Shown: piece by piece, positions 288 through 19,978 of the stretch | Position numbering within the stretch: position 1 is the stretch's first letter | Layout: the number at the start of each line of letters is the position of its first letter | Origin: Methanomethylovorans sp. | GTDB taxonomy: Archaea; Halobacteriota; Methanosarcinia; Methanosarcinales; Methanosarcinaceae | Direction: 5' to 3' | Assembly: GCA_014361205.1 (NCBI GenBank) | Contig: JACIVZ010000006.1 | Location: 1 to 41,779 of the forward strand | Length of the DNA: 41,779 bases | The notes under the pieces: generated by a model | What the model was told of the DNA's origin: nothing | The model's input: the letters and a program-made list of their open reading frames with translations, nothing else | The model's database searches: none | Made by a program: the position numbers and the translations under genes

Positions 288-1829
288 ATGCAATTAAAAG
301 TACAACCCATTGATATTGAGGTAGGAAAATACAAGGTGGTATTAAACACTTCAGATGCCAAGGAACTTGGTGTAAATGCTGGTGACAGAGTTAGGATAAA
401 GAATCATACCACAATTACTGCTATTGTTGATTTTACGGAGGACATGATATCTCCGGGAATGATAGGACTCTATCATGAGGTTCAGGAGCAACTTCGCAGG
501 GAGTGGACAGAGGTAGTGGAAGTGGAACCTGCCGAGAAGCCGAAGTCTGCAGGTATAATCAGGAAGGTTATGGACAAACAGAAACTCACAAGGGAAGAGA
601 TAAATGAACTTGTTAAGGATATTGTGGAAGAAAACTTGACTGATGTAGAATTATCAGCATTCCTAACTGCTTCCTACATCAATGATATGAGTGAGGAAGA
701 GACCGAATGGTTAACCCGTGCTATGGTGGATTCCGGTGAAAAGATAGAATTCGATATTCATCCAATTATGGACAAACACTCCATCGGCGGAGTTCCTGGC
801 AATAAAATCACTTTACTCATTGTACCTATAGTGGCTGCCAATGGTTTATTTATACCAAAGACCAGTTCAAGAGCAATTACAGGAGCTGGAGGTACAGCAG
901 ACCTCATGGAAGTTTTAGCACCTGTGGAGTTCACAGCTTCCCAGATCAAGGAAATGACAGAGAAAGTTGGTGGTGTCATCGTATGGGGAGGAGCAACCAA
1001 CATAGCACCAGCTGACGATAAGCTCATCAAAGTGGAGTACCCTCTTTCCATAGATCCCCATTGCCAGTTGCTTGCATCCATCATGGCAAAGAAATGTGCA
1101 GTGGGAGCAGACAAAGTCGTTATCGATATACCTATGGGTTCAGGTACCAAAATACCTGATATGAAAACCGGGCGCAAGCTCGCCAGGGATCTCATCAGTC
1201 TCGGAGAACGGTTGGGTATGGAAGTAGACTGTGCTCTTACGTATGGTTCATCACCTGTAGGGAGGACCATCGGTCCGGCTCTTGAAGTCAGAGAAGCTCT
1301 ACAGGTTCTGGAAACTATGCAGGGTCCTAACAGCCTTATCGAAAAAAGTGTTGGACTTGCAGGAATGCTTCTGGAAATGGGAGGTGCAGCAGCTTCAGGC
1401 CAAGGTAGAGATCTGGCACTTGAAACTCTAAAAAATGGTAAAGCACTGGCAAAACTTAAGGAAATAATAGCTATCCAGGGCGGTAACCCCAATGTTACAA
1501 GCAACGATATCAAAATAGGTGAATTCAGTGCCAAAATTAATGCTCCGAGCAACGGATACATTATTGAGTTCCGTAACAAAAGGATAGTACAGATAGCTCG
1601 GCTTGCAGGTGCTCCTAACGATAAAGGTGCAGGTGTATACATTCATAAGAAAAGGGGTGAATCAGTACAACAAGGTGAACCCGTAATAACCATTTATGCA
1701 GAAAAAGAATCAAAACTGCAGGCAGCTATCAAAAGTGCAAGGCAAGATCCTCCATTGATCGTTGAAGGTATGCTCATTGAAAGAGTAACAGATATCCGTG
1801 AAGTAAAAACTGTACAGGAAACATCATGA
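288..1829 (+). CDS. deoA: AMP phosphorylase (archaeal DeoA family)
   Basis: The 513-residue product matches the archaeal nucleoside-phosphorylase family that releases adenine (or other bases) from NMPs to give ribose-1,5-bisphosphate, the entry step of the archaeal NMP degradation route (R15P isomerase, then form III RuBisCO). About 85 N-terminal residues form the archaea-specific extension. The glycosyltransferase-3 core follows, with MDKHSIGG at residues 161-168 and the pyrimidine-phosphorylase signature SSRAITGAGGTADLMEV at 193-209. Length is normal for the family (about 500). The next gene overlaps it by 4 bp (ATGA), so the two are probably co-translated. The partner enzymes of the pathway are not in this window. 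The family assignment is secure; AMP preference is inferred from characterised archaeal members. Confidence 0.93.
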   Translation: MQLKVQPIDIEVGKYKVVLNTSDAKELGVNAGDRVRIKNHTTITAIVDFTEDMISPGMIGLYHEVQEQLRREWTEVVEVEPAEKPKSAGIIRKVMDKQKLTREEINELVKDIVEENLTDVELSAFLTASYINDMSEEETEWLTRAMVDSGEKIEFDIHPIMDKHSIGGVPGNKITLLIVPIVAANGLFIPKTSSRAITGAGGTADLMEVLAPVEFTASQIKEMTEKVGGVIVWGGATNIAPADDKLIKVEYPLSIDPHCQLLASIMAKKCAVGADKVVIDIPMGSGTKIPDMKTGRKLARDLISLGERLGMEVDCALTYGSSPVGRTIGPALEVREALQVLETMQGPNSLIEKSVGLAGMLLEMGGAAASGQGRDLALETLKNGKALAKLKEIIAIQGGNPNVTSNDIKIGEFSAKINAPSNGYIIEFRNKRIVQIARLAGAPNDKGAGVYIHKKRGESVQQGEPVITIYAEKESKLQAAIKSARQDPPLIVEGMLIERVTDIREVKTVQETS

Positions 1830-2353
1830 AAAGAATTGTCATTTTACGTCTTGGACATCGAGTCTTCAGGGACAAACGCATCACTACTCACGTAGGTCTT
1901 ACAGCCCGTGCTCTGGGTGCGGAAGGCATGCTGCTCGCATCAGATGACCCCAGCATCAAGCAAAATATTGAAGATGTAGCCACCCGTTGGGGAGGCAATT
2001 TTTACGTTGTCAACGATGTAAACTGGAAGCAGGAAATAAGAAAATGGAAAGAAGAAGGTGGAAAAGTCTGTCATCTGTCCATGTATGGTATAAATCTTCC
2101 GGATGCAGTTGCTGAGATCAGGCAATGTGAAAAACTAATGCTGGTAGTGGGTGCAGAAAAAGTTCCATCTGAAATATATGACCTTGCTGATTGGAATATT
2201 GCAGTGGGTAATCAGCCTCATTCTGAAGTTGCAGCCGTTGCCATAACTCTGGATCGCATAGCCTTAAGCGACCCTCTCCAACAGTGTTTAAGTGGTGGAA
2301 AACTGTCCATCATACCTACAGAAAGAGGGAAAAAAGTCATAGAAAGGCAATGA
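1826..2353 (+). CDS. trm56: tRNA (cytidine(56)-2'-O)-methyltransferase, aTrm56
   Basis: This 175-residue protein belongs to the archaeal Trm56 family, which methylates the 2'-OH of C56 in the T-loop of tRNA. It begins with the family start MKRIVILRLGHR and has the conserved segment RITTHVGLTARALGA. The SPOUT trefoil-knot region is near residues 110-150, with VVGAEKVP and then WNIAVGNQPHSEVAA. The ATG overlaps the stop of the AMP phosphorylase gene (ATGA), which implies translational coupling. Length agrees with single-domain archaeal members. There is no obvious functional link to the upstream gene. The transcript ends before the hairpin at 2380-2421. Confidence 0.92.
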   Translation: MKRIVILRLGHRVFRDKRITTHVGLTARALGAEGMLLASDDPSIKQNIEDVATRWGGNFYVVNDVNWKQEIRKWKEEGGKVCHLSMYGINLPDAVAEIRQCEKLMLVVGAEKVPSEIYDLADWNIAVGNQPHSEVAAVAITLDRIALSDPLQQCLSGGKLSIIPTERGKKVIERQ

Positions 2354-2361
2354 GTCTTTTG

Positions 2362-2421
2362 TGCAAAAATAATTAAAAAAACAATAGAATGTAACATTTG
2401 TTAAACGTTACAGCTATTGTT
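2362..2421 (-). terminator. Hairpin plus T-tract, terminator of the small lipoprotein gene
   Basis: The arms AACAATAG (2380-2387) and CTATTGTT (2414-2421) pair. Inside them GTAAC (2391-2395) pairs with GTTAC (2407-2411). Read on the minus strand the stem is followed at once by a long T-rich run (2362-2379), so it works best as an intrinsic terminator for the minus-strand lipoprotein gene. It could also stop transcripts from trm56. Confidence 0.65.
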
Positions 2422-2461
2422 TGGCGTCTTATTAAAAACCACAACCACAAACTCTTAAATA

Positions 2462-2749
2462 TTATTGTAAACTTTCGTTCACAGTCTCATTCACTGCCTC
2501 TGCAGTCTCATTAAGAGCAGTCTCATTAAGAGTTGCGTTCATGGTTTCTGTTACTGTTTCCTCTACCTCGACAATTGCAGGATATGCAGTTTCATTCATT
2601 ACCTGTTCAGAAACATTCACAGCATCATTTACCGATTCAGTTACGGTTTCTTTTGCCTCTTCGGTACTTTTATCGGCACATCCGGAAATGGCCACCAGAC
2701 CCATTACCAAAAGTCCCATTAATAAAAAATTAAGCATTTTCTTCAACAT
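2462..2749 (-). CDS. Small sequon-rich lipoprotein, function unknown
   Basis: The product is about 95 residues. It has a basic start (MLKK), a hydrophobic segment and a lipobox (AISGC), so it should be a membrane-anchored lipoprotein facing outwards. The mature part is low complexity, rich in Glu, Thr, Val, Asn and Ala with repeated ETVTE/LNET units. It holds seven N-X-S/T sequons within about 62 residues and no recognisable domain. The longest frame starts at GTG 2755, but that codon lies inside the AGGTGAT ribosome-binding site, so ATG 2749 is preferred. The same AAAGGCTAGGTGAT leader precedes the binding-protein gene that starts at about 5938. Not recognised as a named family; possibly a structural or cell-surface spacer protein. 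Confidence 0.7.
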   Translation of the reverse strand: MLKKMLNFLLMGLLVMGLVAISGCADKSTEEAKETVTESVNDAVNVSEQVMNETAYPAIVEVEETVTETMNATLNETALNETAEAVNETVNESLQ

Positions 2750-3124
2750 TATCACCTAGCCTTTGTACACATATGTGAGCTCAGATTAATGACTCTAAGT
2801 TTATTAACAGTATTAAAACTGTTATTCAATATCTACGTCATTATTCCAAGCATTTTATTATTTATAACTATATAGCATATAATCTCTATATAGTGAACAA
2901 TAGCATACAATGTATATGGTATAAATCTTTCGGTTTAATCGCAACTCCTTAATAACGCTTTTCTATGGCCAAAAATACTATTTGACAGGTAAAAAAATAA
3001 AAATTTAATGAGCAACTGTGCATTTCATGATGATTTGATATAATCTAATTTTCTCAACTGTATCTTAGAAAAATTGATGTACACAAAGAGAAAGCTTAAT
3101 ATTGTGCCAGAAAAGTATAATTGT
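2750..3124. other. Divergent intergenic region with imperfect direct repeat
   Basis: No gene is visible. It separates the minus-strand lipoprotein from the plus-strand acetyltransferase. It holds a 10-bp palindrome CACATATGTG (2768-2777). An imperfect direct repeat has copies at 2872-2893 and 2900-2919, sharing ATAGCATA(T/C)AAT followed by a TATAT(A/G)G core. A TATA-like GATATAATC lies at about 3036-3044. The repeats probably belong to promoter or operator sequence. Confidence 0.4.
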
Positions 3125-3619
3125 ATGAAATCAGTTAAAGGTCTCCTTATTCGTAGTGCATATGTTGAAGATGTGCCTTTGTTATTGCAATTAATAAAGG
3201 GAATTGCAGAATATGAACATCTAAGTCATTTGGTTTCAGCTACAGAGGACTCACTTAAAAGATTTCTTTTTGGAGATAAACCTTTTGCTGAAGCTCTGAT
3301 AGCGGAATTTGATAATGTACCTGCTGGTTTCGTGGTTTTCTTCCATAATTTTTCTACATTTCTGGGAAAACCAGGTTTATATATAGAAGATATATATGTA
3401 CTGCCACAATTCCGGCACAAAGGAATTGGTGGCTCCCTGTTCATGAAATGCATCCAGATAGCTAAAGACCGCGATTGTGGGCGTATTGAATGGAGTGTTT
3501 TACACTGGAACCCTGCACGTAAGTTCTATGAAAAATTCGGTGCTCAGCCTATTCAAGACTGGATAATATATCGTCTGGATGAGGAAATGATTGAACAGAT
3601 CTCATTGAAAAAAAACTAA
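3125..3619 (+). CDS. GNAT acetyltransferase, spermidine/spermine-acetyltransferase-like
   Basis: This is a single-domain N-acetyltransferase of about 164 residues. It begins with an IR.A..ED motif, as in the SAT1/SAT2 (diamine acetyltransferase) branch. It has the branch-typical [18 protein letters not shown] segment, then the acetyl-CoA pyrophosphate loop [11 protein letters not shown], and then [13 protein letters not shown]. It should transfer acetyl from acetyl-CoA to an amine; the true substrate (polyamine, thialysine or other) cannot be read from sequence. An open frame extends upstream to a TTG at 3074 (ATG at 3077), and a TATA-like element near 3040 would suit that start. The ATG at 3125 matches normal family length better, so the start is uncertain. 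Its stop overlaps that of the convergent ABC ATPase gene by 4 bp. Confidence 0.82.
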
Positions 3620-9561: not shown

Positions 9562-9820
9562 GGCTCTACCTTTTCCATTTCAGCTGAATACCTTTTTAAA
9601 CACAATTTCTTCAGCAGGCAACGATTGTTTTTTGGCGCAAGATATATAAATAAAAGCAACGATTGATAGCCAACGCTTGATGTAAGTTCTTTCAAATAGC
9701 AACTAACACAAGCAGTTGAAGATCATTAAGCCAATATTTCTGGTCAGCATAGATCAGTAAGCTACAATGAATGATGAAAGACTATGAATTTCATTCATGG
9801 TTTTGAAGGAGACAAATAAT
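9562..9820 (+). promoter_or_regulatory. Promoter and leader of the L7Ae translation operon
   Basis: A strong TATA box (GATATATAAA, 9641-9650) predicts a start near 9670 and a leader of about 150 nt. Around it lie three related sites: GCAACGATTG at 9618-9627, the same 10-mer at 9656-9665, and CAACGCTTGAT at 9671-9681. The leader ends in a hairpin (9767-9774 with 9791-9798) whose 5' side includes ATGATGA (9771-9777), the box C consensus recognised by L7Ae in other RNAs. It is followed by GAAGGAG and the ATG at 9821. Confidence 0.55.
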
Positions 9821-10177
9821 ATGGCAAAAAAATTCGATATTCCAGTAGAGCTCGCTAACAAAGCCCTTGAGAGCGTTGAATTAGCAAGAGACACCGGTAA
9901 ACTCAAAAAAGGAACTAACGAAGTTACAAAAGCAATTGAAAGAGGCATTGTTAAACTTGCAGTTATCGCAGAGGATATTCAGCCTGCAGAGATCACCGCC
10001 CACATTCCTGCACTTTGTGAAGAAAAGAACGCTCCATATATTTTTGTAAAACAGCAGAAGGAACTTGGAGCTGCCTGCGGCATAGGGGTAAACTGTGCAA
10101 CAGTTGCTATTATCGATGCAGGAAAGGGTGGAGAACTTGTTGAAGACATTATCCAGAAGATTAACGCCCTTAAGTAA
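9821..10177 (+). CDS. rpl7ae: Ribosomal protein L7Ae
   Basis: This 118-residue RNA-binding protein binds kink-turns in 23S rRNA, box C/D and H/ACA guide RNAs and archaeal RNase P. It shows the family core [26 protein letters not shown] followed by [13 protein letters not shown] and [16 protein letters not shown]. Length is normal. The frame extends to 9797 but GAAGGAG (about 9805-9811) before ATG 9821 fixes the start, giving the usual [11 protein letters not shown] start. It is first in a run with S28e, L24e, Ndk and IF2, an arrangement conserved in euryarchaea. The leader may allow autoregulation (see findings). Confidence 0.97.
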
Positions 10178-10197
10178 CTCCTTTGGAGGCATAGAAA

Positions 10198-10413
10198 ATG
10201 GCAGATGATGAAACAGGATATGCGGCAGAAGTCATCGATGTAATCGGAAATACCGGTATGCACGGTGAAGCTAGCCAGATCCAGTGCAGAGTTCTGGAAG
10301 GCAGGGATAAGGGCCGTATAATTACCCGCAACAGCGTTGGACCCGTAAGGATCGGAGATATTCTCATCCTCATGGAAACTTCCAGAGAGGCAAAGAAGCT
10401 CACTACAAGGTGA
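10198..10413 (+). CDS. rps28e: Ribosomal protein S28e
   Basis: This 71-residue small-subunit protein near the mRNA exit channel has the typical core [31 protein letters not shown] followed by [21 protein letters not shown]. It is preceded by a GGAGG site 20 bp after L7Ae. Its stop lies within the AGGTGAT ribosome-binding site of the L24e gene, which suggests coupled translation. Confidence 0.97.
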
Positions 10414-10418
10414 TTTTG

Positions 10419-10607
10419 ATGGAACAGCGCAAATGTTCTTTCTGCGGTGGGTTTCTCGAACCAGGTACAGGGAAATTGTTCGCCAAGAAAGATGGATCCA
10501 CATATTATTTCTGTTCATCCAAGTGCGAGAACAATTTCATGCTTGGAAGGCTTCCAAGACGTACAATCTGGACAGAGCAGGGCAGGATATATCTCAAGAA
10601 AACCTGA
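10419..10607 (+). CDS. rpl24e: Ribosomal protein L24e (zinc finger)
   Basis: This 62-residue large-subunit protein has a four-cysteine zinc site: CSFC near the N-terminus and CSSKC near residue 30, flanked by FVEPGTG-like ([15 protein letters not shown]) and RLPRRTIWT segments. The frame to GTG 10410 is rejected because that codon sits inside AGGTGAT. ATG 10419 gives the expected [11 protein letters not shown] start. It lies between S28e and Ndk in the same run. Confidence 0.96.
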
Positions 10608-10619
10608 GCTGGTGTCAAA

Positions 10620-11069
10620 ATGGAACAGACTTATGTAATGATTAAACCAGACGCTGTGCAAAGAGGTCTTATAGGTGAGATTATCCTGAGGATAGAGCGA
10701 AAAGGGCTTAAGATCAAAGCCATGCGTATGAACGTAATGGACAAAACAATCGCAATGGAACATTATAGTGAACATTCTGAAAAGCCCTTTTTCAATTCTC
10801 TTATAGAATATGTTACTTCCGGCCCTTCAGTTTCTATGGTTGTTGAAGGTAAGAATGCCATCTCTATCATGAGAAGTATCAATGGAGCTACTAATCCAGT
10901 GAATGCCTTACCTGGTACTATACGTGGTGATTTTGCTGTAGAGACGGGGAGGAATATAGTGCACGCTTCTGATTCCCTCGAAGCTGCAAAGCGTGAGATA
11001 TCCATACATTTTAAGAACAGTGAGATAATAGAGTACAAGAAAGTAGATGAGGCATGGTTGTACGAGTAA
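10620..11069 (+). CDS. ndk: Nucleoside diphosphate kinase
   Basis: This 149-residue cytoplasmic enzyme transfers phosphate between NTPs and NDPs through a phosphohistidine. It shows YVMIKPDAVQRGLIGEI at the start, the NPVNALPGTIRGDFA region and the active-site histidine at about residue 115 (RNIVHASDS). Length is the family norm. It starts 12 bp after L24e. Its place between ribosomal genes and IF2 is conserved in many euryarchaea and fits supply of GTP for translation. Confidence 0.97.
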   Translation: MEQTYVMIKPDAVQRGLIGEIILRIERKGLKIKAMRMNVMDKTIAMEHYSEHSEKPFFNSLIEYVTSGPSVSMVVEGKNAISIMRSINGATNPVNALPGTIRGDFAVETGRNIVHASDSLEAAKREISIHFKNSEIIEYKKVDEAWLYE

Positions 11070-11185
11070 AGGGGGTTGAACGTTTAACATTCCTGGTCTT
11101 CATGAATCAATTTTGAAGCTGGGTATGGACTAAACAATCCCGTAATTCCACATATCTCAAGAAAGAGTAACAGAAGGGGTTTCTC

Positions 11186-12961
11186 ATGGTAGATAGGAAG
11201 AATTTGCGAACGCCGATAGTATCTGTAATGGGACATGTAGACCACGGGAAAACCACCCTGCTTGATAAAATAAGAGGTAGTTCGGTGGCTTCAGGTGAAG
11301 CTGGTGCAATCACACAGCATATAGGAGCTACAGAGGTACCAATAGATGTAATAGTTGAGAAATGCGGCAATCCCGCCTTAAGGGAAAAATTTTTCGTGCC
11401 TGGTCTCTTATTCATAGATACGCCCGGTCACCATGCTTTCACATCCCTGAGAAGTCGTGGTGGTGCACTTGCAGATCTTGCTATTGTGGTAGTTGATATC
11501 AATGAGGGTTTCAAACCACAGACTATAGAAAGCCTGCAGATCCTTAAACGCTTTAAAACACCCTTTGTGGTTGCTGCAAACAAGATAGACAGGATACATG
11601 GGTGGAATTCAGTACCAAATGCTCCCTTCCTTGTTAGCTACAACAAGCAGGCAGAGCATGTAAAAGTATATCTCGATAATAAGTTTTATGAGATCATAGG
11701 GGAGTTATTCAATGTCGGCTTCAATGCAGACCGCTATGATCGGATCAAAGATTTCCAGCGTACTGTTGGTGTGATCCCTATTAGTGGATATACTGGGGAA
11801 GGTATACCCGATGTATTGATGATATTGCTGGGATTGGCGCAAAAATTCCTGGAAGCTAATCTACGCTATGATGCAACAGGTCCTGGTGTGGGAACTGTGC
11901 TTGAAGTAAAAGAGGAACGTGGGCTTGGTACAACAGTTGATCTGATTCTTTATGATGGAATGATACAGAAAGGAGATACAATTGTTCTGGGAAGTCTTGG
12001 TGAACCTATCCAGACCAAAGTAAGAGCAATTCTTAAACCCAGGCCATTGTCTGAAATCAAGTCCGAAGAAAAGTTTCAACAGGTCGATAAAGTAATTGCA
12101 GCTGCTGGTATAAAGATCTCAGCCCCTAATCTTGACGGAGCCCTTGCAGGCACTCCTCTTAGAGTTGCCACCGCTGAAACAATTGACAGGATAGTCAAGG
12201 AGATTAAGCAGGAAGTAGAAGCAGTGCACATTGACACTGATATAATGGGGATCACCATCAAAGCCGATACAATAGGTTCACTTGAAGCTCTTGTCAATGA
12301 GCTTAAAAAAGAGAAAATTCCCATCAGGAAGGCAGATGTTGGTGATATAACTCATCGTGACATAGTTGAGGTCTCAGCAATAGAAGATCCTCAATATTCC
12401 GTACTTGTAGGATTTAATGTAAAGGTATTACCTGACGCCAGAGAAAAAGCTCAGTTATCTAACATCAAGTTATTTGTAAATGATGTTATTTACAGACTCA
12501 TTGATGATTACAAGCAATGGTTTGAAGAACAGAAAGAGCTATCTGAAAAAAGCATTTCTGAGACAATTGTCAAACCTGCAATTTTCCAGATAATGCGCGA
12601 TTGCGTTTTCAGACAAAGTAAACCTGCTGTTGTTGGAGTTAGGATCAAGGCAGGTATAGTAAGGACAAACGTCGAGGTTACAAACTCGGAGGGTGTAGTT
12701 GTCGGCAGGATCAAGGGGCTTCAGTCACAGGGTGAAAACATCGGCAGTGCAAGAACAGGCATGGAAGTAGCCATGGCAATTGAGGGACCCACAGTTGGAC
12801 GTCAAATAAAAGAGGAAGATATTCTTTATGTAAATATTCCTGAAAGACATGCAAAAATACTTGAGCATGAGATCTACAATTCTCTTTCAGCTGACGAACT
12901 GGAAGCTTTAGATGCATTCTTGGACGTTAAAAGAAAAGATAACCCCTTCTGGGCAAAATAA
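11186..12961 (+). CDS. infB: Translation initiation factor IF-2 / aIF5B
   Basis: The product is a 591-residue GTPase that helps subunit joining and initiator tRNA placement. It has G1 GHVDHGKT at residues 16-23, DTPGH (G3), NKID (G4) and then the long domain II-IV region with the archaeal/eukaryal C-terminus. It lacks the long N-terminal extension of bacterial IF2, as expected for aIF5B. I see no intein, which some archaeal homologues carry. AAGGGG lies upstream of ATG 11186. A 116-bp spacer separates it from ndk. S6e follows with its own AT-rich spacer. Confidence 0.97.
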
Positions 12962-13040
12962 TAGATATACCTTAATATTTACATTAATATATATTATATT
13001 AACGAATCGCAACAGTTTAAAACTATTCGGAGGAATAAAA

Positions 13041-13433
13041 TTGGCAGATTTTAAAGTAGTTGTTTCAGACCCAAAGACAAAGAGTTATCAGTTTGATGTT
13101 AAAGGCAATGAAGCAAATAAATTCATAGGAAAGACAATCGGACAGGAAATTGATGGTTCTGTAGTTGGTCTTGCCGGTTATAAACTAATAATCACGGGAG
13201 GAAGTGATAAAAGTGGAATGGTGATGAAACCAGACCTTCCCGGCCCGAGAAGAAAAAAGATCCTCGTTTCTAAAGGAGTTGGTTATTCACCAAAAGCAAG
13301 AGGCGTGCGCCGCAGAAAGACAATGCACGGCAAGGAAATTTCGCCGGATATCATTCAGATTAATACCAAAGTTGTGGAGTACGGTGAAAAATCCATTGAA
13401 GAGCTCATAGGTGGTAGCAAACCAGAAGAGTGA
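13041..13433 (+). CDS. rps6e: Ribosomal protein S6e
   Basis: This 130-residue protein shows the archaeal S6e core: [26 protein letters not shown], the [20 protein letters not shown] segment and [14 protein letters not shown]. The long open frame to 12912 overlaps infB and is not real. The start is TTG 13041, placed after CGGAGGA with normal spacing, giving the expected N-terminus. An AT-rich spacer (12962-13030) may hold its own promoter. The stop codon forms part of a terminator stem. Confidence 0.96.
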
Positions 13434-13502: not shown

Positions 13503-14219
13503 TTAGCTCGGCATTTTCAGCAACCATAATGTTATAATACCCACTGCTACTGAAATTGTCAGGCTTGCTAGTGTACCAATAAGAATATATTCTCCTGCTT
13601 TTCTATCTGCATTAAATCTAAGGATAGATTTCGAGGCTATGAGTAGTCCTACCAGTGAATACTCCTGATTAAGTATGAATGTAAGTATCAGAAATCTTTC
13701 CATTCTTCCTATCCACAGTCCAGCTTTTTCAAGCCCTTCATAATTTGAAGGTTCAATCTCTTTTTTCCACCTTTGCGTTACTTTTCCGATGAACAATCCT
13801 GCAGGAAACAGTATCAAAAAATATGCTGTGACGAGGATCCATGCTTGTGAATTTGCAAATAGGTTTTTACCTAGTTCCTTGATTGAGAAAGGAATAAGCA
13901 TGTACCAAACTAATAATAATATCATTATGTGGGCTGTCTGATTAAGACAAAACCACAGTGGGGTTTCTTTTTGCATAGGCCTGACACTGACAATAGCCAC
14001 ATGACTCAAAGCTACTGCAAATAAAATCCACACTTTATCCCATTGTGCCACAAAGATATAGGCAAGCAAGCCTGCAATACAACCTTGAATGTAAAACAAA
14101 AGAAAAGACCAGTTCTTACTGATATATCTTCTTATTTTTTGATCTTTTTGGAAAAGGAAATCGGTAAGAAGATGGGAAAACAGCAGTTTAATCAGTAGGG
14201 TTATGTAATCACCGTTCAT
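13503..14219 (-). CDS. DUF3307 multi-pass membrane protein
   Basis: This 238-residue protein has about six to seven hydrophobic segments. It opens with LLIKLLFSHLLTDFLFQ, the DUF3307 signature with conserved His and Asp in the first membrane segment; later segments include LNQTAHIMILLLVWYML and LVTAYFLILFPAGLFIGK. Function is unknown. It begins 11 bp after the SatD-like gene, with GAGGGA before ATG 14219, so the two form an operon. SatD and DUF3307 genes are known to me as frequent neighbours in bacteria. The membrane protein may be the output or target of the SatD partner, but this is inference. Confidence 0.8.
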   Translation of the reverse strand: MNGDYITLLIKLLFSHLLTDFLFQKDQKIRRYISKNWSFLLFYIQGCIAGLLAYIFVAQWDKVWILFAVALSHVAIVSVRPMQKETPLWFCLNQTAHIMILLLVWYMLIPFSIKELGKNLFANSQAWILVTAYFLILFPAGLFIGKVTQRWKKEIEPSNYEGLEKAGLWIGRMERFLILTFILNQEYSLVGLLIASKSILRFNADRKAGEYILIGTLASLTISVAVGIITLWLLKMPS

Positions 14220-14230
14220 TTAATTTCCCT

Positions 14231-14935
14231 CTATCCCATTTTTATCATATCTGTTTTATCCATTTCTCCTGAGATCTTTTCTTCTATCCGTTTCTTCCAA
14301 TATTCCACAAAATATTCTACAGCTGTGCTACCTGCTAATTTCAGGCGCTGGCTTACTGCAGACTGTGATATCGAAAGTTGGGATGCTATTGTTTCCTGAT
14401 TCCATCCCCTCATCCTTCCAAGAACAGCCTGAGCCTGTTCACGCGACCACCTTTGAGAAAGAGCATCAAAAAGAATACACATAACCTCGAACTCTTTATT
14501 AATATGAGGCCATGGAGTTGTGATTTTTGTTTTTCTTTTCGATTTTTTCATACTTTCTATCATTAACCCTGAATTTCTGAAAGCTTCTCCATCACCCTCT
14601 GCACCTCTGCCTGAAGCAGGAAGGAAATCTATACTTCCTATACCTATAGATATTCTTGCATCCAGCCTGCTTTCAAAACTTTCTTGTGCAAGGAGGCAGC
14701 AACGCAGGGAAATCGCAGCCAAAAGACTATCTTGTGGAGAAGACAATACACACTGGAAACTATCACCTCTGTATATTTCAAAACCATAGACTAACGTTTG
14801 TGATGGGAGTAGTTTTTCAACAATATCAAAACAATCTTTAACTTTAGTCAGTAATTCATCCCTGTGTTTTCCTTTAAAACGAGAAGATCCTTCCAGATCT
14901 CCTGTAAGCACTGCAAATATATGTGGTTCAGTCAT
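14231..14935 (-). CDS. SatD-family cyclase-fold protein with C-terminal HTH
   Basis: The product is about 234 residues. Residues 1-150 fit the SatD family, which resembles class III nucleotide cyclase/GGDEF folds: AVLTGDLEGSSRF at the N-terminus, then RGDSFQCVL (like GD.FQ of SatD), then ARISIGIGSID, and later GRGAEGDGEAFRNSG. Residues about 165-220 form a helix-turn-helix of the sigma-region-4 kind (GWNQETIASQLSISQSAVSQRLK). So it may sense a nucleotide and bind DNA, or bind DNA only. Whether it makes a nucleotide product is unknown. ATG 14935 is preferred; a TATA box lies at about 14976-14985, leaving a very short leader. It is first in an operon with DUF3307. Confidence 0.78.
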   Translation of the reverse strand: MTEPHIFAVLTGDLEGSSRFKGKHRDELLTKVKDCFDIVEKLLPSQTLVYGFEIYRGDSFQCVLSSPQDSLLAAISLRCCLLAQESFESRLDARISIGIGSIDFLPASGRGAEGDGEAFRNSGLMIESMKKSKRKTKITTPWPHINKEFEVMCILFDALSQRWSREQAQAVLGRMRGWNQETIASQLSISQSAVSQRLKLAGSTAVEYFVEYWKKRIEEKISGEMDKTDMIKMG

Positions 14936-15432
14936 GCTCCAGCCCGAAAATATAAGTCTTAAAACCAATAATCAATTTATATAAGCTTTAAACTTATATT
15001 ATGTTTTTGTTTTAATCTTCTTTTCTAATCTTCTTTTGATACCTATCTTATAAAGCGTATTTATTTTCTCCGAATACCACATCTGCAAACACACCAGTTT
15101 TTAGAAGTTTCTCAAAATATTCTGCAGTGCTATTATCTTGCATTTCAAGATCTTTTGCAGCTTTTCATCGAATGGCGGGAGAGATCCATAAAAGGAGAGA
15201 TTTCAACTTTTTTATAAACAAGTATAAAACCTCATACACTCTCATAAACACTACTAATACCATACAGGATGGGTAATGCAGCCCTCTATTTAAAGTACTT
15301 ATAGAGTACTTGGATAACAATTTGTCATGATCTTTAGTTGTTATTAGAATAACAACAACATTGTAATTTTGAAAAAAATATAAATATTAGCCGTTTCTAT
15401 ATGCCCCTTATCCTTACGGGAAATCGGCACAG
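14936..15432. promoter_or_regulatory. Divergent control region of SatD/DUF3307 and RND operons
   Basis: About 0.5 kb without an intact gene. It holds the TATA box for the minus-strand SatD gene (about 14976-14985) and a degraded minus-strand frame (about 15048-15161). There is a repeated AAGTACTT (15293-15300, with AGTACTT at 15305-15311) and a perfect dyad GTTGTTATT-AG-AATAACAAC (15337-15356). The RND operon TATA box is at about 15376-15385, with a predicted start near 15405-15410. The dyad sits about 20 bp upstream of that TATA box, as expected for an operator or activator site. A related half-site, ATAACAA, lies at about 15314-15320. Confidence 0.6.
15048..15161 (-). pseudogene. Possible degraded gene remnant
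   Basis: On the minus strand, after a TGA, about 37 codons read KAAKDLEMQDNSTAEY and continue through FEKLLKTGVFADVVFGENKY to a stop. The composition is protein-like, yet there is no supported start and the same frame is blocked upstream. It may be the 3' end of a lost gene, or a very short gene starting at the internal ATG. I do not recognise the family. Confidence 0.25.
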
Positions 15433-17784
15433 TTGAGAGGTATTTTTATAAAAGGAATCTTTGAAAAACTTGGTGTTTTTATTGAAGACAACTCGGTGGC
15501 TATAGGTCTTATTACCTTACTTTTAATAATCCTTTCCCTGCAAGGAGCACAGCTCATTGAAATGAAATCAGGGACTGATACTTTCGTGGAAAAAACCTCC
15601 AAGCTCTATCAGGACTTTGACCACCTATATCTGAAACTTTTCAGTACCCAGTCCATAGTTGTGATCATAGAGGGAAATGATATCACAAATCCTGAACTTC
15701 TCAAAGCTTTGGACAGGGCTCAAGTGTCAGCTTTGGCCATACCAGGAGTTATTGAAGTAACTTCTCCTACCACAGTAATAAAAGAAGTAAATTATAAAAT
15801 AACAGGAAAATCTGAAATTCCAGATGATGAAGCTACAATAAAGAGTATAGTTGCTTCCCATATGCCTTCAGCTCTTATGCCTGATCAGACTCATGCTTTT
15901 ATGTCAGTTGTAATGGAAGGCAGTGCTACAGACCAAATGCAGGAAGAAATATTAAGGGAAACTGAAGCAGCTCTTGCTTTTGCTAAGTTTCCGCCGGGTT
16001 ATAAAATAATAATTACTGGAAATCCGGCCTTCAACATTGCTCTTAACTATGAAATGAACTCAAGTATGGGGCCTTTACTTGGAATATCAGCCTTACTGAT
16101 GATTGTAGTGCTATATTTGGTGTTCAGGCATGTCAGATGGAGATTACTTCCCCTTCCCATTGTGCTTCTTGGAATCATATTTACCTTCGGTGCAATGGGT
16201 TTTTTGAATATTCCATTGTCAATGGTCTCCATGGCGGCATTTCCCGTGCTTATAGGGCTTGGAATCGATTATGCAATTCAGTTTCACAACCGTATAGAAG
16301 AGGAACTTGGTAAAGGAGAGGATGCTGCAGAGGCTGTGATTCAAACAATCAGGCACATTGGCCCTGCAGTTCTGACAGCTTTGATCATCACTGCTTTGGG
16401 ATTTGTTTCTCTTTTCACATCTGCAGTGCCAATGGTACAGGATTTTGGAAAGCTTTTGCTCATAGGTATTGTTATGTGTTTTATGTCTTCTCTTTTTATG
16501 GGAGTGACAGTAATTTATTCGCTGCATCGGGTAGATGCTAAGAAGAAGTTGAATAATGAAAAATTCCGGAAAAAGAAAGAAAATGTAGACAATAACACCC
16601 GGAATGATATTTTGGACATACTGCTTGGACGTATGACTGCCTTCACACTGAGGTATCCATGGATTATTCTTATATTTGCAGTTATTTCCTGTTTAGGTGG
16701 CATGTATGTAGATACAATGGTCCCCCTACAGACAGATGTTCAGACCTTCGTTCCTCAGGATATGCCAGCTTTATTGAACCTGAAACTGTTAGGCAGTATA
16801 CTTGGAGGTAATGAGGAATTAAATCTCGTAATTAAGACAGATAATAATGCGGATCCAAATCTTCTGCAATGGATAGATGATTTTTCAAAACATGAAGTTG
16901 AAGGCAGGTCCCATATATACGGATCCAGCAGTATAGTGTCCATAGTAAAGGAAATGAACGCAGATGAAATTCCGGCAACATCAGAAGAAGTGAGACATCT
17001 GTATGCACAGATACCCGATGTCCAGAAAGAAAGATACATCCATGGAGGGAATATCATGGTACTCAATCTGAACATAGGCAATGCCATGAGTGAATTGGGC
17101 CTGATGGGTATATCTGAGCTATCTGATATAGTCTCTGAGGACATAAAATGGTTTCCTCCGCCCCCTGGCACAACTGTGACAATCACCGGCGGCACAGTAG
17201 TGTTTTTTGAGGTGATAGATGCACTTACTTCAGGACGTAGGTTAATGACACTTTTAGGGATAGTTTTTGTATTCGCAGGACTGCTGGTCATATACAGAGA
17301 CTACCTTAAAGCTCTCACTCCCGTCATCACGATGTTGATAGTTATAGGCTGGTCTGGAGGCATCATGTATTATATGGGTCTTGAGTATACTCCTATGACT
17401 GCAACGCTGGGTGCACTTATCCTTGGAGTTGGTTCAGAATATGCTATCTTAATGATGGAAAGATATTTTGAAGAAAAAGACAAGGGAGCCTCTTGCGAAG
17501 AAGCAATGCATGAGGCAAGCGTAAAGATGGGAAAGGCTATTGTAAGTTCAGGGCTTACCACAGTATTTGGTTTTTCTGCATTGATAGCTTCTCCCTTTAG
17601 TATGACAAGTAATTTTGGTTTCATTACAGTGATAGATGTAACACTGGCATTGTTAGCTACATTTGTTGTATTTCCACCTGTATTGGTATTGCTGGACAAA
17701 CACAGAGAACAGAGGATCTTGAGAAAGAGAATGAAGACCATGAGTAATGACCATGTCAGGGTAATGGAGGTTATCTCCACATGA
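15433..17784 (+). CDS. RND-superfamily exporter (HAE3/MMPL type)
   Basis: This 783-residue membrane protein is built as two similar halves, each with an N-terminal membrane helix, a large outward loop and a five-helix bundle. The first half has PVLIGLGIDYAIQFHNRIEEEL, with the Asp-Tyr pair of the proton relay. The second has the matching LGVGSEYAILMMERYFEE with Ser-Glu instead. HAE3 members in archaea are thought to move hydrophobic or lipid-like cargo; the cargo here is unknown. The start appears to be TTG 15433 with a short leader. The stop overlaps the ATG of the next gene (ATGA), tying it to the two COG1361-type proteins. This suggests an export machine with extracytoplasmic partners. Confidence 0.9.
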   Translation: MRGIFIKGIFEKLGVFIEDNSVAIGLITLLLIILSLQGAQLIEMKSGTDTFVEKTSKLYQDFDHLYLKLFSTQSIVVIIEGNDITNPELLKALDRAQVSALAIPGVIEVTSPTTVIKEVNYKITGKSEIPDDEATIKSIVASHMPSALMPDQTHAFMSVVMEGSATDQMQEEILRETEAALAFAKFPPGYKIIITGNPAFNIALNYEMNSSMGPLLGISALLMIVVLYLVFRHVRWRLLPLPIVLLGIIFTFGAMGFLNIPLSMVSMAAFPVLIGLGIDYAIQFHNRIEEELGKGEDAAEAVIQTIRHIGPAVLTALIITALGFVSLFTSAVPMVQDFGKLLLIGIVMCFMSSLFMGVTVIYSLHRVDAKKKLNNEKFRKKKENVDNNTRNDILDILLGRMTAFTLRYPWIILIFAVISCLGGMYVDTMVPLQTDVQTFVPQDMPALLNLKLLGSILGGNEELNLVIKTDNNADPNLLQWIDDFSKHEVEGRSHIYGSSSIVSIVKEMNADEIPATSEEVRHLYAQIPDVQKERYIHGGNIMVLNLNIGNAMSELGLMGISELSDIVSEDIKWFPPPPGTTVTITGGTVVFFEVIDALTSGRRLMTLLGIVFVFAGLLVIYRDYLKALTPVITMLIVIGWSGGIMYYMGLEYTPMTATLGALILGVGSEYAILMMERYFEEKDKGASCEEAMHEASVKMGKAIVSSGLTTVFGFSALIASPFSMTSNFGFITVIDVTLALLATFVVFPPVLVLLDKHREQRILRKRMKTMSNDHVRVMEVIST

Positions 17785-18896
17785 AAAATATACCAGGAAC
17801 AAAAAATTTCATACATGTTATTGTTATTCTGACAGTTGTAGTTTTTTTTATTATGTTTTTAGTTACAGGGGTATTTCCTGCTTCTGCAAAAGAGTTCTTA
17901 CCTCCTACATACGAGCACACGACTAACTTTTACACTGGTTACGGCGAACCGGATCTTTATGCTTCGGTGATAGGGGATATGGAACTGAAAAGAGGAGAAA
18001 CAAGAGATATAAAGATTGTAATTTCGAATAGAGGGGTACTGTATGGTGCAAAGAGTGCCCAAGGTGTTGGCACATCGAAGACTAAACAGGCTCTTGCCAT
18101 GAGGGAAATGGAATATGAATCCCTGCGTACCGTTGCTTATGGTGTGAAGGCTACCCTTGTGAGCAATTCTGAATATATAGATGTTGACCCAACAACAAAC
18201 AGTCAGACCATTGAGAAGATATTTCCGGGTCAATTACCTGATGATCCTCTTGTCTTTACACTAAAGGTTTCGGATAAAGCACCTGCTGGTGTATATATGC
18301 TATCTTTGCCTCTTGTATACGAGTACAAAAAAGACATACGCATGACTATGGGCAGCACAAACATCATGGGTCTGCCTGATGCAGATCATGCCACCTATTT
18401 CCAGACTGCCAACAAGACCCTTACAATACCATTAATCATAGAACCTGAACCCAGGTTATCTGTTACTAATGTTTCAGGGCAGATTCCAACAGGAGGTAAA
18501 GCTGTTATTAATGTCACATATACAAATATGGGTGAGCTTCCGGCAACTGATGCTGTTGCAAGGATCATTGCCATGAAACCGCTTTCTTGTGAGCGATCCA
18601 TCCAAACTCTTGGCACCATAGACCCGGGTTTCAGCAAAACGGCGTCTTTTGTGATATCTGCTGAACGTGAAGCTGTGGTAAAGACATATGGTCTTGACAG
18701 TGAGATCAAATATATTGATACAGACGGTGATATAGCATATTCACGCAATATGAAAGTAGATGTGACAGTCACGCTTGCTAAACAAAAATTAAACATAACC
18801 GCTATTGCAATTGCCGGGATAATCCTCACGTTAATTGTGCTGATATCTAAGAACATATTAAGGAGCATGAACCAAAAGAAAAGAGGGATAGAATGA
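17781..18896 (+). CDS. COG1361-like surface protein, first RND-linked paralogue
   Basis: The 371-residue product has a signal or anchor segment at about residues 12-35 (VIVILTVVVFFIMFLVTG). Its outward part has two or more beta-sandwich (CARDB/NEW3-like) domains, and a C-terminal membrane helix (ITAIAIAGIILTLIVLIS) ends in a basic tail. Motifs shared with the next protein are a GD.E..RG start, REMEYESLRTVAYGVKATL, KAPAGVYMLSLPL and a late SEIKY.DTDGD segment. Overlapping stop and start codons on both sides couple it to the RND gene and to its paralogue. It is probably an extracytoplasmic partner of the exporter. Function is not established. Confidence 0.78.
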   Translation: MKNIPGTKNFIHVIVILTVVVFFIMFLVTGVFPASAKEFLPPTYEHTTNFYTGYGEPDLYASVIGDMELKRGETRDIKIVISNRGVLYGAKSAQGVGTSKTKQALAMREMEYESLRTVAYGVKATLVSNSEYIDVDPTTNSQTIEKIFPGQLPDDPLVFTLKVSDKAPAGVYMLSLPLVYEYKKDIRMTMGSTNIMGLPDADHATYFQTANKTLTIPLIIEPEPRLSVTNVSGQIPTGGKAVINVTYTNMGELPATDAVARIIAMKPLSCERSIQTLGTIDPGFSKTASFVISAEREAVVKTYGLDSEIKYIDTDGDIAYSRNMKVDVTVTLAKQKLNITAIAIAGIILTLIVLISKNILRSMNQKKRGIE

Positions 18897-19978
18897 ACAG
18901 CCTGAAAAATGTTGTAAGTGTCATGACATTTCTGTTTCTGGTAATTTGTATTACATCACCTGCATATGCCCGATTGCCGGAATTCTTCAACTTTGATGAT
19001 AACTATTATGTGGTCTATGGAGGACCTAACGTAACTGCAACCCTAGTAGGTGATAATGAATATTATAGAGGGGACAAAGTTACCCTAAACCTAAATCTTA
19101 TGAACAAAGGTGTTATCACAGGATTCAAAGATAAAGCTGGCAGGAAGAATCTTAACAATCTGGAACAGAAGATCCAGATGACAGAAATGAAATACGAAGC
19201 CCAGAGGACAACTGCTATTGGCATTGTAGCTATCCTCAGTTCTGAAAGTCCTTATATAAAAGTAAAATCCGGACCTCAGGAAGCAGGTTCCCTTTTATCG
19301 GGAGAACAAACCGAAAAGCCTGTCAAATTCAACATTGAGATATCCAAGAATGCCCCGGCTGGTGTTTATCCCCTGGACTTGCAGCTGTATTATGGATATC
19401 AGCAGGACGTGCAACTCGGCGGTGATGATGAAACGGATCTGGGCATTACTAATATGGAAGTTGGATTGTGGTACTCGGTGGGCAGGCAAAATCAGACTAT
19501 CAACATAAAAGTAGGTAATGAAGCTTCTTTTGAAGTGGTGAACGTCACAGGTAAGCTGTATGCAGATGAAGAGGGACTTTTACGTGTTACTTACAAGAAC
19601 ACAGGCGAGATGACTGCCAAAGATGCCACTGTCAGAATAAGTGTGGATGATCCGTTCAGTACAACAGATGATCAGGCATTTTTGGGTACATTGGCACCAG
19701 GAGAGACTTCAGATGCTTTGTTTAGGCTCAAGGTTGATGAAATGGCAGTTGCCAAAGCCTATTCTATTAACAGTGAGATTAAGTATGAAGATGAGGACGG
19801 GCACAGTCGTGTATCAGATACAATAAAGATAAAGACTGAAACACTGCCTGCACGTTCTTTTGGCGAATCATTGTCAAATTATACTGGATTCTTTGCAATA
19901 ATTGTAATAGTAATCGTAGTTACAGGTGCTTTCCTTATCTATAAAAAACAGGAGGGAAGAAACAGAGGTAAGGAATAA
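18893..19978 (+). CDS. COG1361-like surface protein, second RND-linked paralogue
   Basis: This 361-residue paralogue of the preceding protein shows the same order: signal peptide (residues 1-25, ending near AYA), a GDNEYYRGDKVTLNLNLMNKG domain, TEMKYEAQRTTAIGIVAIL, NAPAGVYPLDLQLYYGY, a CARDB-like domain and a C-terminal membrane helix (FFAIIVIVIVVTGAFLIYK). Shared SEIKYEDEDG and SEIKYIDTDG segments support duplication. Its ATG overlaps the stop of its neighbour (ATGA). Both proteins should sit outside the membrane next to the RND pump. The role, for example as adaptor, cargo binder or envelope link, is inference. Confidence 0.78.
   Translation: MNSLKNVVSVMTFLFLVICITSPAYARLPEFFNFDDNYYVVYGGPNVTATLVGDNEYYRGDKVTLNLNLMNKGVITGFKDKAGRKNLNNLEQKIQMTEMKYEAQRTTAIGIVAILSSESPYIKVKSGPQEAGSLLSGEQTEKPVKFNIEISKNAPAGVYPLDLQLYYGYQQDVQLGGDDETDLGITNMEVGLWYSVGRQNQTINIKVGNEASFEVVNVTGKLYADEEGLLRVTYKNTGEMTAKDATVRISVDDPFSTTDDQAFLGTLAPGETSDALFRLKVDEMAVAKAYSINSEIKYEDEDGHSRVSDTIKIKTETLPARSFGESLSNYTGFFAIIVIVIVVTGAFLIYKKQEGRNRGKE

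Follow-up and report, generated by a model that had tools for sequence, protein, structure and literature searches.

A satD-like gene, its membrane partner and a 29-bp dyad array: a candidate autoregulated module of archaea and bacteria

The satD-like gene and its membrane partner

The window, which here means the whole stretch of 41,779 nucleotides from Methanomethylovorans sp. that was analysed, carries two open reading frames at 13503-14935. Both were recovered on the minus strand at the coordinates that the first-pass annotation had assigned to them, and the gap from satD to the partner gene is 11 bp (Table 1). The host genome assembly amounts to 2.15 Mb in 170 contigs. Methanolobus and ANME-2/Methanoperedens are among the related genomes, which points to a methanogen-type archaeon of the Methanosarcinales. 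On the plus strand at 9797-13433 are genes which, judged by eye from their translations, code for L7Ae, S28e, L24e, nucleoside diphosphate kinase, an IF-2-like factor and S6e, and resemble an archaeal ribosomal/translation cluster. At 15433-19978 an RND/MMPL-like transporter gene and the two genes after it are divergent from satD, and the start codons of satD and of the transporter gene are about 500 bp apart.

Table 1. Positions of the genes, protein domains, codons and putative operator dyads of the satD locus
Feature	Position	Strand	Remarks
satD-like gene, 234 aa	14231..14935	minus	ATG at 14935, stop 14231-14233; ORF list, Pfam, AlphaFold2, Foldseek
Nucleotide-cyclase/GGDEF-fold domain of SatD (N-terminal, ~residues 1-142)	14510..14935	minus	AlphaFold2, Foldseek, alignment
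D13 codon	14897-14899	minus	Residue ends beta1 of SatD
D58 codon	14762-14764	minus	Residue in beta2-beta3 hairpin of SatD (RGDSFQ)
Sigma-70-region-4-like HTH of SatD (C-terminal, ~residues 160-222)	14270..14458	minus	Q196 in recognition helix
Partner gene, multi-pass membrane protein, 238 aa	13503..14219	minus	ORF list, Pfam
DUF3307 domain of partner	13887..14198	minus	D77, D93 and H45 lost compared with relatives
C-terminal membrane domain of partner (~residues 123-238)	13506..13853	minus	Constant part of the pair
Putative operator dyad 1, TATAAG-N7-CTTATA	14980..14998		Spacer one base below the family form
Putative operator dyad 2, TATTGG-N8-CTTATA	14951..14970		Degenerate, two mismatches, 28 bp from dyad 1

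SatD of the window resembles the SatD family (PF16264) over its whole length, including the HTH region, and differs from it in scoring below the curated cut-off (20.1 bits against 29, residues 12-202), which many of its close homologues exceed in Pfam. The sigma-region-4-like HTH that had been read in the C-terminal half was confirmed by a Pfam match to sigma-70 region 4 (E 8e-4, residues 175-200), and sigma-70 region 4 is also matched by 26 of 28 homologues with a best E of 1.9e-5. Since the PF16264 model itself extends into the HTH region, the HTH is not an additional domain. The listed Pfam matches of SatD do not include the PucR HTH (PF13556); the HTH matches sigma-70 region 4 models.

A sequence search of the PDB with SatD returned weak HTH matches only, and the cyclase fold emerged from structure comparison. 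The AlphaFold2 model (window protein plus 27 homologues) has a mean pLDDT of 90.7, and its elements follow each other in the order E6-15, H23-42, E48-56, E59-64, H67-82, E92-104, H117-132 and E136-139. Foldseek gave 67 PDB matches to this model at E <= 0.001, and the 50 that were listed are GGDEF proteins and nucleotidyl cyclases. The best is the GGDEF protein DgcB (E 7.7e-6), and soluble guanylate cyclase (1e-4), photoactivated adenylyl cyclase (1e-4) and uridylate cyclase (3e-4) were also matched. The cyclase-like fold that had been suspected was thus borne out against both class III cyclases and GGDEF proteins, with target-normalised TM-scores of up to 0.62 and therefore with a likeness at the level of the superfamily.

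Class III and GGDEF enzymes bind their metal in two places, where strand 1 ends and within the hairpin of strands 2 and 3. In the alignment and in the AlphaFold2 model these places are taken by D13 and D58 of SatD. The GD.FQ and GDG.A motifs of the first-pass annotation are present as GDSFQ (residues 57-61) and GDGEA (114-118), and the candidates for the metal-binding acids that it had raised are D13 and D58, which lie at the putative metal positions and are invariant in 28 aligned archaeal SatD. The other residues invariant in this alignment are T11, G12, R56, G57, S59, F60, Q61, R94, I97, G98, G100, E113, G116, A118, F119, S122, G123, K130, R162 and W163. The aspartates and the hairpin motif are also found in the SatD of plasmid pEC34A and in canonical SatD sequences. 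Because D13 and D58 occupy the metal places of class III and GGDEF enzymes, the model makes binding of a metal or a nucleotide by the N-terminal domain likely. The transition-state Asn/Arg of class III enzymes and the phosphate-binding Lys of GGDEF enzymes are not evident in SatD, since a hand alignment puts A118/S122 at the former and S122 at the latter, and the GG[DE]EF hairpin motif is absent, the window SatD having RGDSFQ and canonical SatD LGDEFQ in this place.

Methanosarcinales also have a second class of SatD (L065-L070) with the hairpin KGIDEIEG in place of GDEFQG, and several of these loci show dyads with TTGTT/AACAA-like half-sites at a 28- or 29-bp period. SatD-HTH proteins were seen by eye to be fused to TPR-like repeats in a Methanofollis MAG (L096, 461-2062) and to HEAT-like repeats in a methanogen (L045, 2071-3396), which suggests further protein partners.

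The partner matches DUF3307 (PF11750) at 45.8 bits against a curated cut-off of 23, and 28 of 28 relatives match this family too. H45, D77 and D93, which are near-invariant in the relatives, are Q, V and N in the partner of the window, which retains H16, D20, H73 and H97; the partner of a sister species retains D77 and D93. Compared with this sister protein, residues 71-122 are 46% identical and residues 123-238 are 89% identical, with a dN of 0.07. Some satD genes of related archaea are followed by a gene for a shorter membrane protein, whose match to the partner is confined to the C-terminal half. The constant part is therefore the C-terminal membrane domain, and the DUF3307 domain is optional. 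The partner model (pLDDT 77.6) found no meaningful structural match in the PDB. Pfam gave no second family for the partner, only weak single matches such as HlyIII and VIT1, and no match to any known nucleotide-sensing domain.

Full-length satD was found in 31 relatives (>90 bits, among 200 related genomes) and a DUF3307 gene directly adjoins it in 30 of them. A scan of 84,980 species genomes gave 295 relatives, and at 74 of the best 80 loci among these the partner is adjacent. These two counts place the pairing of satD and its partner beyond chance, and the membrane partner proposed earlier is thus near-constant; it is also the sole neighbour of satD that recurs across phyla. The label "archaeal" given to the module did not hold, as it is present in many bacterial phyla: the best 80 loci include pairs from Methanosarcinales, Methanomicrobiales, Methanomassiliicoccus, Bacteroidota, anammox Planctomycetota, Omnitrophota, Bipolaricaulota, Zixibacteria, Eisenbacteria and others. 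Methanoculleus and its relatives have the two genes in inverted order. Canonical satD genes of haloarchaea, one methanogen and Fusobacterium likewise have a DUF3307 partner, and at three canonical satD loci (L062-L064) no DUF3307-type partner was found within the 1.5-kb flanks.

A dyad array of fixed period before satD genes

Alignment of the upstream regions revealed one conserved block in DNA that was otherwise unalignable. In the discovery group this predicted operator block is made up of TATAAG-N8-CTTATA dyads of about 20 bp, in two to three copies that form an exact 29-bp repeat. In the 200 bp upstream of satD, 46 of 105 loci have at least one dyad with no more than one mismatch, and 1.5 loci are expected from dinucleotide shuffles. 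The double dyad, with 24 fixed bases and at most three mismatches allowed, was then used to search 27 whole genomes with the reversed pattern as the control. It was present in 25 of the 27 and the control in none, and every double-dyad match in these genomes falls at the satD locus. The placement of the array differs between lineages. Methanosarcinales have one array ahead of satD, and many of them have a second one that ends 1 bp before the ATG of the partner gene. Among Bacteroidales satD follows another gene within a different operon, and a TATAAC-N8-GTTATA array stands before the partner gene. The array of Flavobacteriia ends 16-21 bp ahead of the satD start codon.

A period scan that is independent of the half-site sequence was carried out over 113 loci. 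The best period was 29 bp at 77 loci and 28 bp at 12, where about 6.6 are expected for each period. Half-sites vary widely and include GTTCGC in haloarchaea, where canonical satD also has the 29-bp array, TACAACC in Natronosalvus, TTTGAG in Methanothrix, TATCGT in Pseudarcicella, TCAACC on an Enterobacter plasmid (E. kobei) and TTAGCC in Vibrio. The period of 28/29 bp is constant across lineages while the letters of the half-sites differ. No clear array was found at some loci, such as those on the P. fragi, Arthrobacter and S. insulae plasmids. That the TATAAG arrays are mere archaeal TATA boxes was considered and rejected because the 29-bp geometry recurs with GC-rich haloarchaeal half-sites and with other, bacterial ones.

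The half-site is associated with residue 196 in the recognition helix of SatD (window numbering). This residue is K at all 13 TATAAC loci and Q at 32 of the 35 TATAAG loci. In a tree built from the N-terminal domain only, residue 196 and the half-site switch together on four branches, just one of which is well supported, which puts the independent switches at one to four. This association ties the array to the HTH of SatD and speaks against a role at the RNA level or an unrelated role. The array had been missed in the first-pass annotation, and it argues that SatD is foremost a DNA-binding regulator of its own locus.

Apparent decay of the window copy and the genomic setting of the pair

Dyad 1 of the window is expected 0.01 times per window and is the only exact match in the host genome. 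Since the reversed control pattern also matches, twice per strand, the genome-wide count of dyads says little by itself, and the support for dyad 1 comes from its position and from the family. No array was found before the partner gene in the window. In a second congener both genes are reduced to disrupted remnants. These remnants, together with the lost DUF3307 residues and the low identity of residues 71-122, indicate that the module is accessory and that the DUF3307 domain of the window may be decaying. The window copy of the module thus looks partly decayed, and from the sequence comparisons the decay appears to hit the DUF3307 domain, with the C-terminal domain of the partner and SatD still under constraint.

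In Flavobacteriia (L127, L133, L137 and related loci) the pair has a fixed site, close to which lie, as judged by eye, a gyrA-like gene and a gene for a large membrane protein similar to 7TM-HD (PgpH-like) phosphodiesterases. On a Sphingomonas insulae plasmid (L166, 7180-18455) Gabija GajA/GajB, a Thoeris-type TIR gene, the pair, and a Pycsar effector and cyclase stand in a row. The mobilizable E. coli plasmid pEC34A (L151, NC_019077.1; 3,770 bp) carries the pair at 1792-3481 and otherwise Rop, MobA and one short hypothetical gene, and there are records of the same size in Klebsiella. The pair is the sole evident cargo of enterobacterial plasmids of 3,770 bp and 4,424 bp. Complete RefSeq E. 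coli genomes lack the pEC34A pair. No homologue was found in phage records by tblastn, and one DUF3307 PHROG exists.

The first-pass annotation had looked to defence islands, and on chromosomes this was not substantiated. PADLOC detected two families (MzaA and mad3, two members each) in the 136 proteins nearest to 20 chromosomal pairs. In 140 matched controls taken from the same contigs it detected 35 families, mostly from one CRISPR locus included by chance; there is hence no chromosomal enrichment of defence genes. Neither SatD nor its partner matched any PADLOC model up to E = 1, the Pycsar and CBASS models included. The PADLOC release used (2023) predates Panoptes and is silent on membership in that system.

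Proposed role of SatD and the alternatives

Based on these comparisons we think it likely that SatD is a one-component regulator of its own two-gene module that binds an operator and probably senses a nucleotide. The sigma-4-like HTH would bind the two to three dyads (about 20 bp each, 29 bp apart) as an array of dimers, before satD and/or before the partner gene. Binding would control, and most likely repress, the expression of the partner membrane protein, whose C-terminal membrane domain would be the core effector, with the DUF3307 domain as an optional addition. The N-terminal domain keeps the cyclase/GGDEF fold and both metal-position aspartates and therefore probably binds a nucleotide with metal, which would alter DNA binding. 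The fold, the linkage, the array, its specificity for the locus and the association of residue 196 with the half-site are well supported by comparative evidence. Nucleotide binding is suggested by the modelled fold and the conserved aspartates, and we infer repression rather than activation because the arrays lie near promoters and start codons. The partner may be harmful when it is unregulated. In S. pyogenes satD is essential wherever tested and yet is absent from 29% of genomes (PMC11323703). This essentiality would be consistent with restraint of the partner, presuming by analogy that streptococcal satD has a DUF3307-type neighbour.

No description of the SatD-DUF3307 pair, of the cyclase fold of SatD or of the array was found in a literature search that lacked most subscription journals, and the one role of SatD that it brought up is a link to acid tolerance in S. 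mutans. Several known systems resemble the module in part. Pycsar (PycC and PycTM) also sets a class III cyclase-fold protein beside a membrane effector, and PycC is an active cyclase found in defence islands. Panoptes optSE is likewise a two-gene operon of a GGDEF/Cas10-like palm-domain (mCpol) protein and a membrane protein; OptS differs from SatD in its proven catalysis and, in the accessible part of the source (PMC12657218), in having no DNA-binding role described, and OptE has a nucleotide-binding beta-barrel, whereas the partner of SatD matches no known nucleotide-binding domain. DUF2652 proteins are uncharacterised and have, like SatD, the fold of class III cyclases with a pair of metal aspartates; they belong to another family, and the accessible text on them (PMC4886424) describes mostly single-domain proteins and reports no fused HTH or membrane partner. 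Regulators of the PucR/CdaR type combine a GGDEF fold and a C-terminal HTH in one protein, and MabR, which is of the PucR type and joins a GGDEF-like domain without the catalytic motif to an HTH (PMC11617747), is the precedent for this combination. MabR no longer has the catalytic motif and carries an additional sensor domain, and SatD differs from the PucR/CdaR type in keeping both metal-position aspartates and in its sigma-4-like HTH, its array and its fixed membrane partner.

Other explanations of the module have to be weighed against autoregulation. The patchy presence of the module, the pseudogenes in relatives and a satD that is essential yet accessory in S. pyogenes (PMC11323703) would also fit a toxin-antitoxin or anti-phage module, in which SatD restrains a growth-inhibiting membrane protein that is freed by infection or by loss of the module. 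The plasmids point the same way, as two enterobacterial ones (3.77 and 4.4 kb) have no other obvious cargo than the pair, which adjoins Gabija, TIR and Pycsar genes on that of Sphingomonas and lies near Gabija on an Enterobacter plasmid. However, these plasmid cases are few and hand-picked and do not amount to a statistical test, the chromosomal pairs show no enrichment of defence genes over the matched controls in PADLOC, no PADLOC model matches either protein, and the context in Flavobacteriia is fixed and housekeeping. We regard a toxin-antitoxin or defence function as possible but doubtful. It is unlikely, in our estimate, that a (cyclic) nucleotide made by SatD directly restrains or activates the partner and that the HTH and the array set expression only. 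Such a pair would have the fold with both metal aspartates and the two-gene layout with a membrane partner that are found here, and in Panoptes OptE is toxic unless OptS is catalytically active (PMC12657218), a kind of toxicity that would by analogy fit the essentiality of satD in S. pyogenes (PMC11323703). But alanine and serine (A118/S122) stand by hand alignment where a class III enzyme would have Asn/Arg, and S122 where GGDEF enzymes have Lys, the partner matched no known nucleotide-sensing domain, and SatD has an array of DNA sites that a pure synthase would not need.

The opposite view, that the cyclase fold is dead and is a scaffold for dimerisation alone, with SatD sensing something else or nothing, draws on the same lack of evident transition-state residues and on the GGDEF-like domain of MabR, which has no catalytic motif (PMC11617747); a role in dimerisation only seems likely for the PucR-type GGDEF-like domain. 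Unlike MabR, all 28 archaeal SatD of the alignment keep the hairpin motif and the two aspartates at the metal positions, as do pEC34A and canonical SatD, and we hold a dead fold to be rather improbable. The dyads could fold into short hairpins, the end of one array abuts the start codon of the partner, and a DNA-binding protein together with a membrane protein could tether DNA, so the array might act as leader RNA hairpins or as a site of partition or membrane tethering and not as an operator. Yet letter 6 of the half-site tracks HTH residue 196, the inner 8 bases of the dyads are not consistently complementary, the arrays are at promoter-distance from start codons and most copies are chromosomal, which leaves this explanation extremely unlikely. 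A bolder version of the proposed regulator is that SatD is both an enzyme and a repressor, and forms a filament on the 29-bp array in which paired cyclase-fold domains would make or hydrolyse a nucleotide that reports the state of the cell and sets both operator occupancy and partner activity. We consider this very unlikely; if true, it would be a second-messenger system common to archaea and bacteria in which the synthase itself is the transcription factor.

What is new here is the 29-bp dyad array before satD genes, which is portable across lineages. We rate SatD as a probable one-component autoregulator with a membrane partner, in which the sensor fold is unusual and the operator geometry unusually portable. 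The regulator, the operator geometry and the membrane partner occur together in archaea, in several bacterial phyla and on small plasmids, and an unstudied SatD/DUF3307 family thereby gains a function that can be tested. Restraint of the partner by SatD would suggest why streptococcal satD is essential where it is present. The fixed 29-bp spacing leads to direct predictions on how the protein assembles along DNA, and the module offers a case in which a fold of the cyclase/GGDEF type that has retained its metal site may serve as the sensor of a transcription factor.
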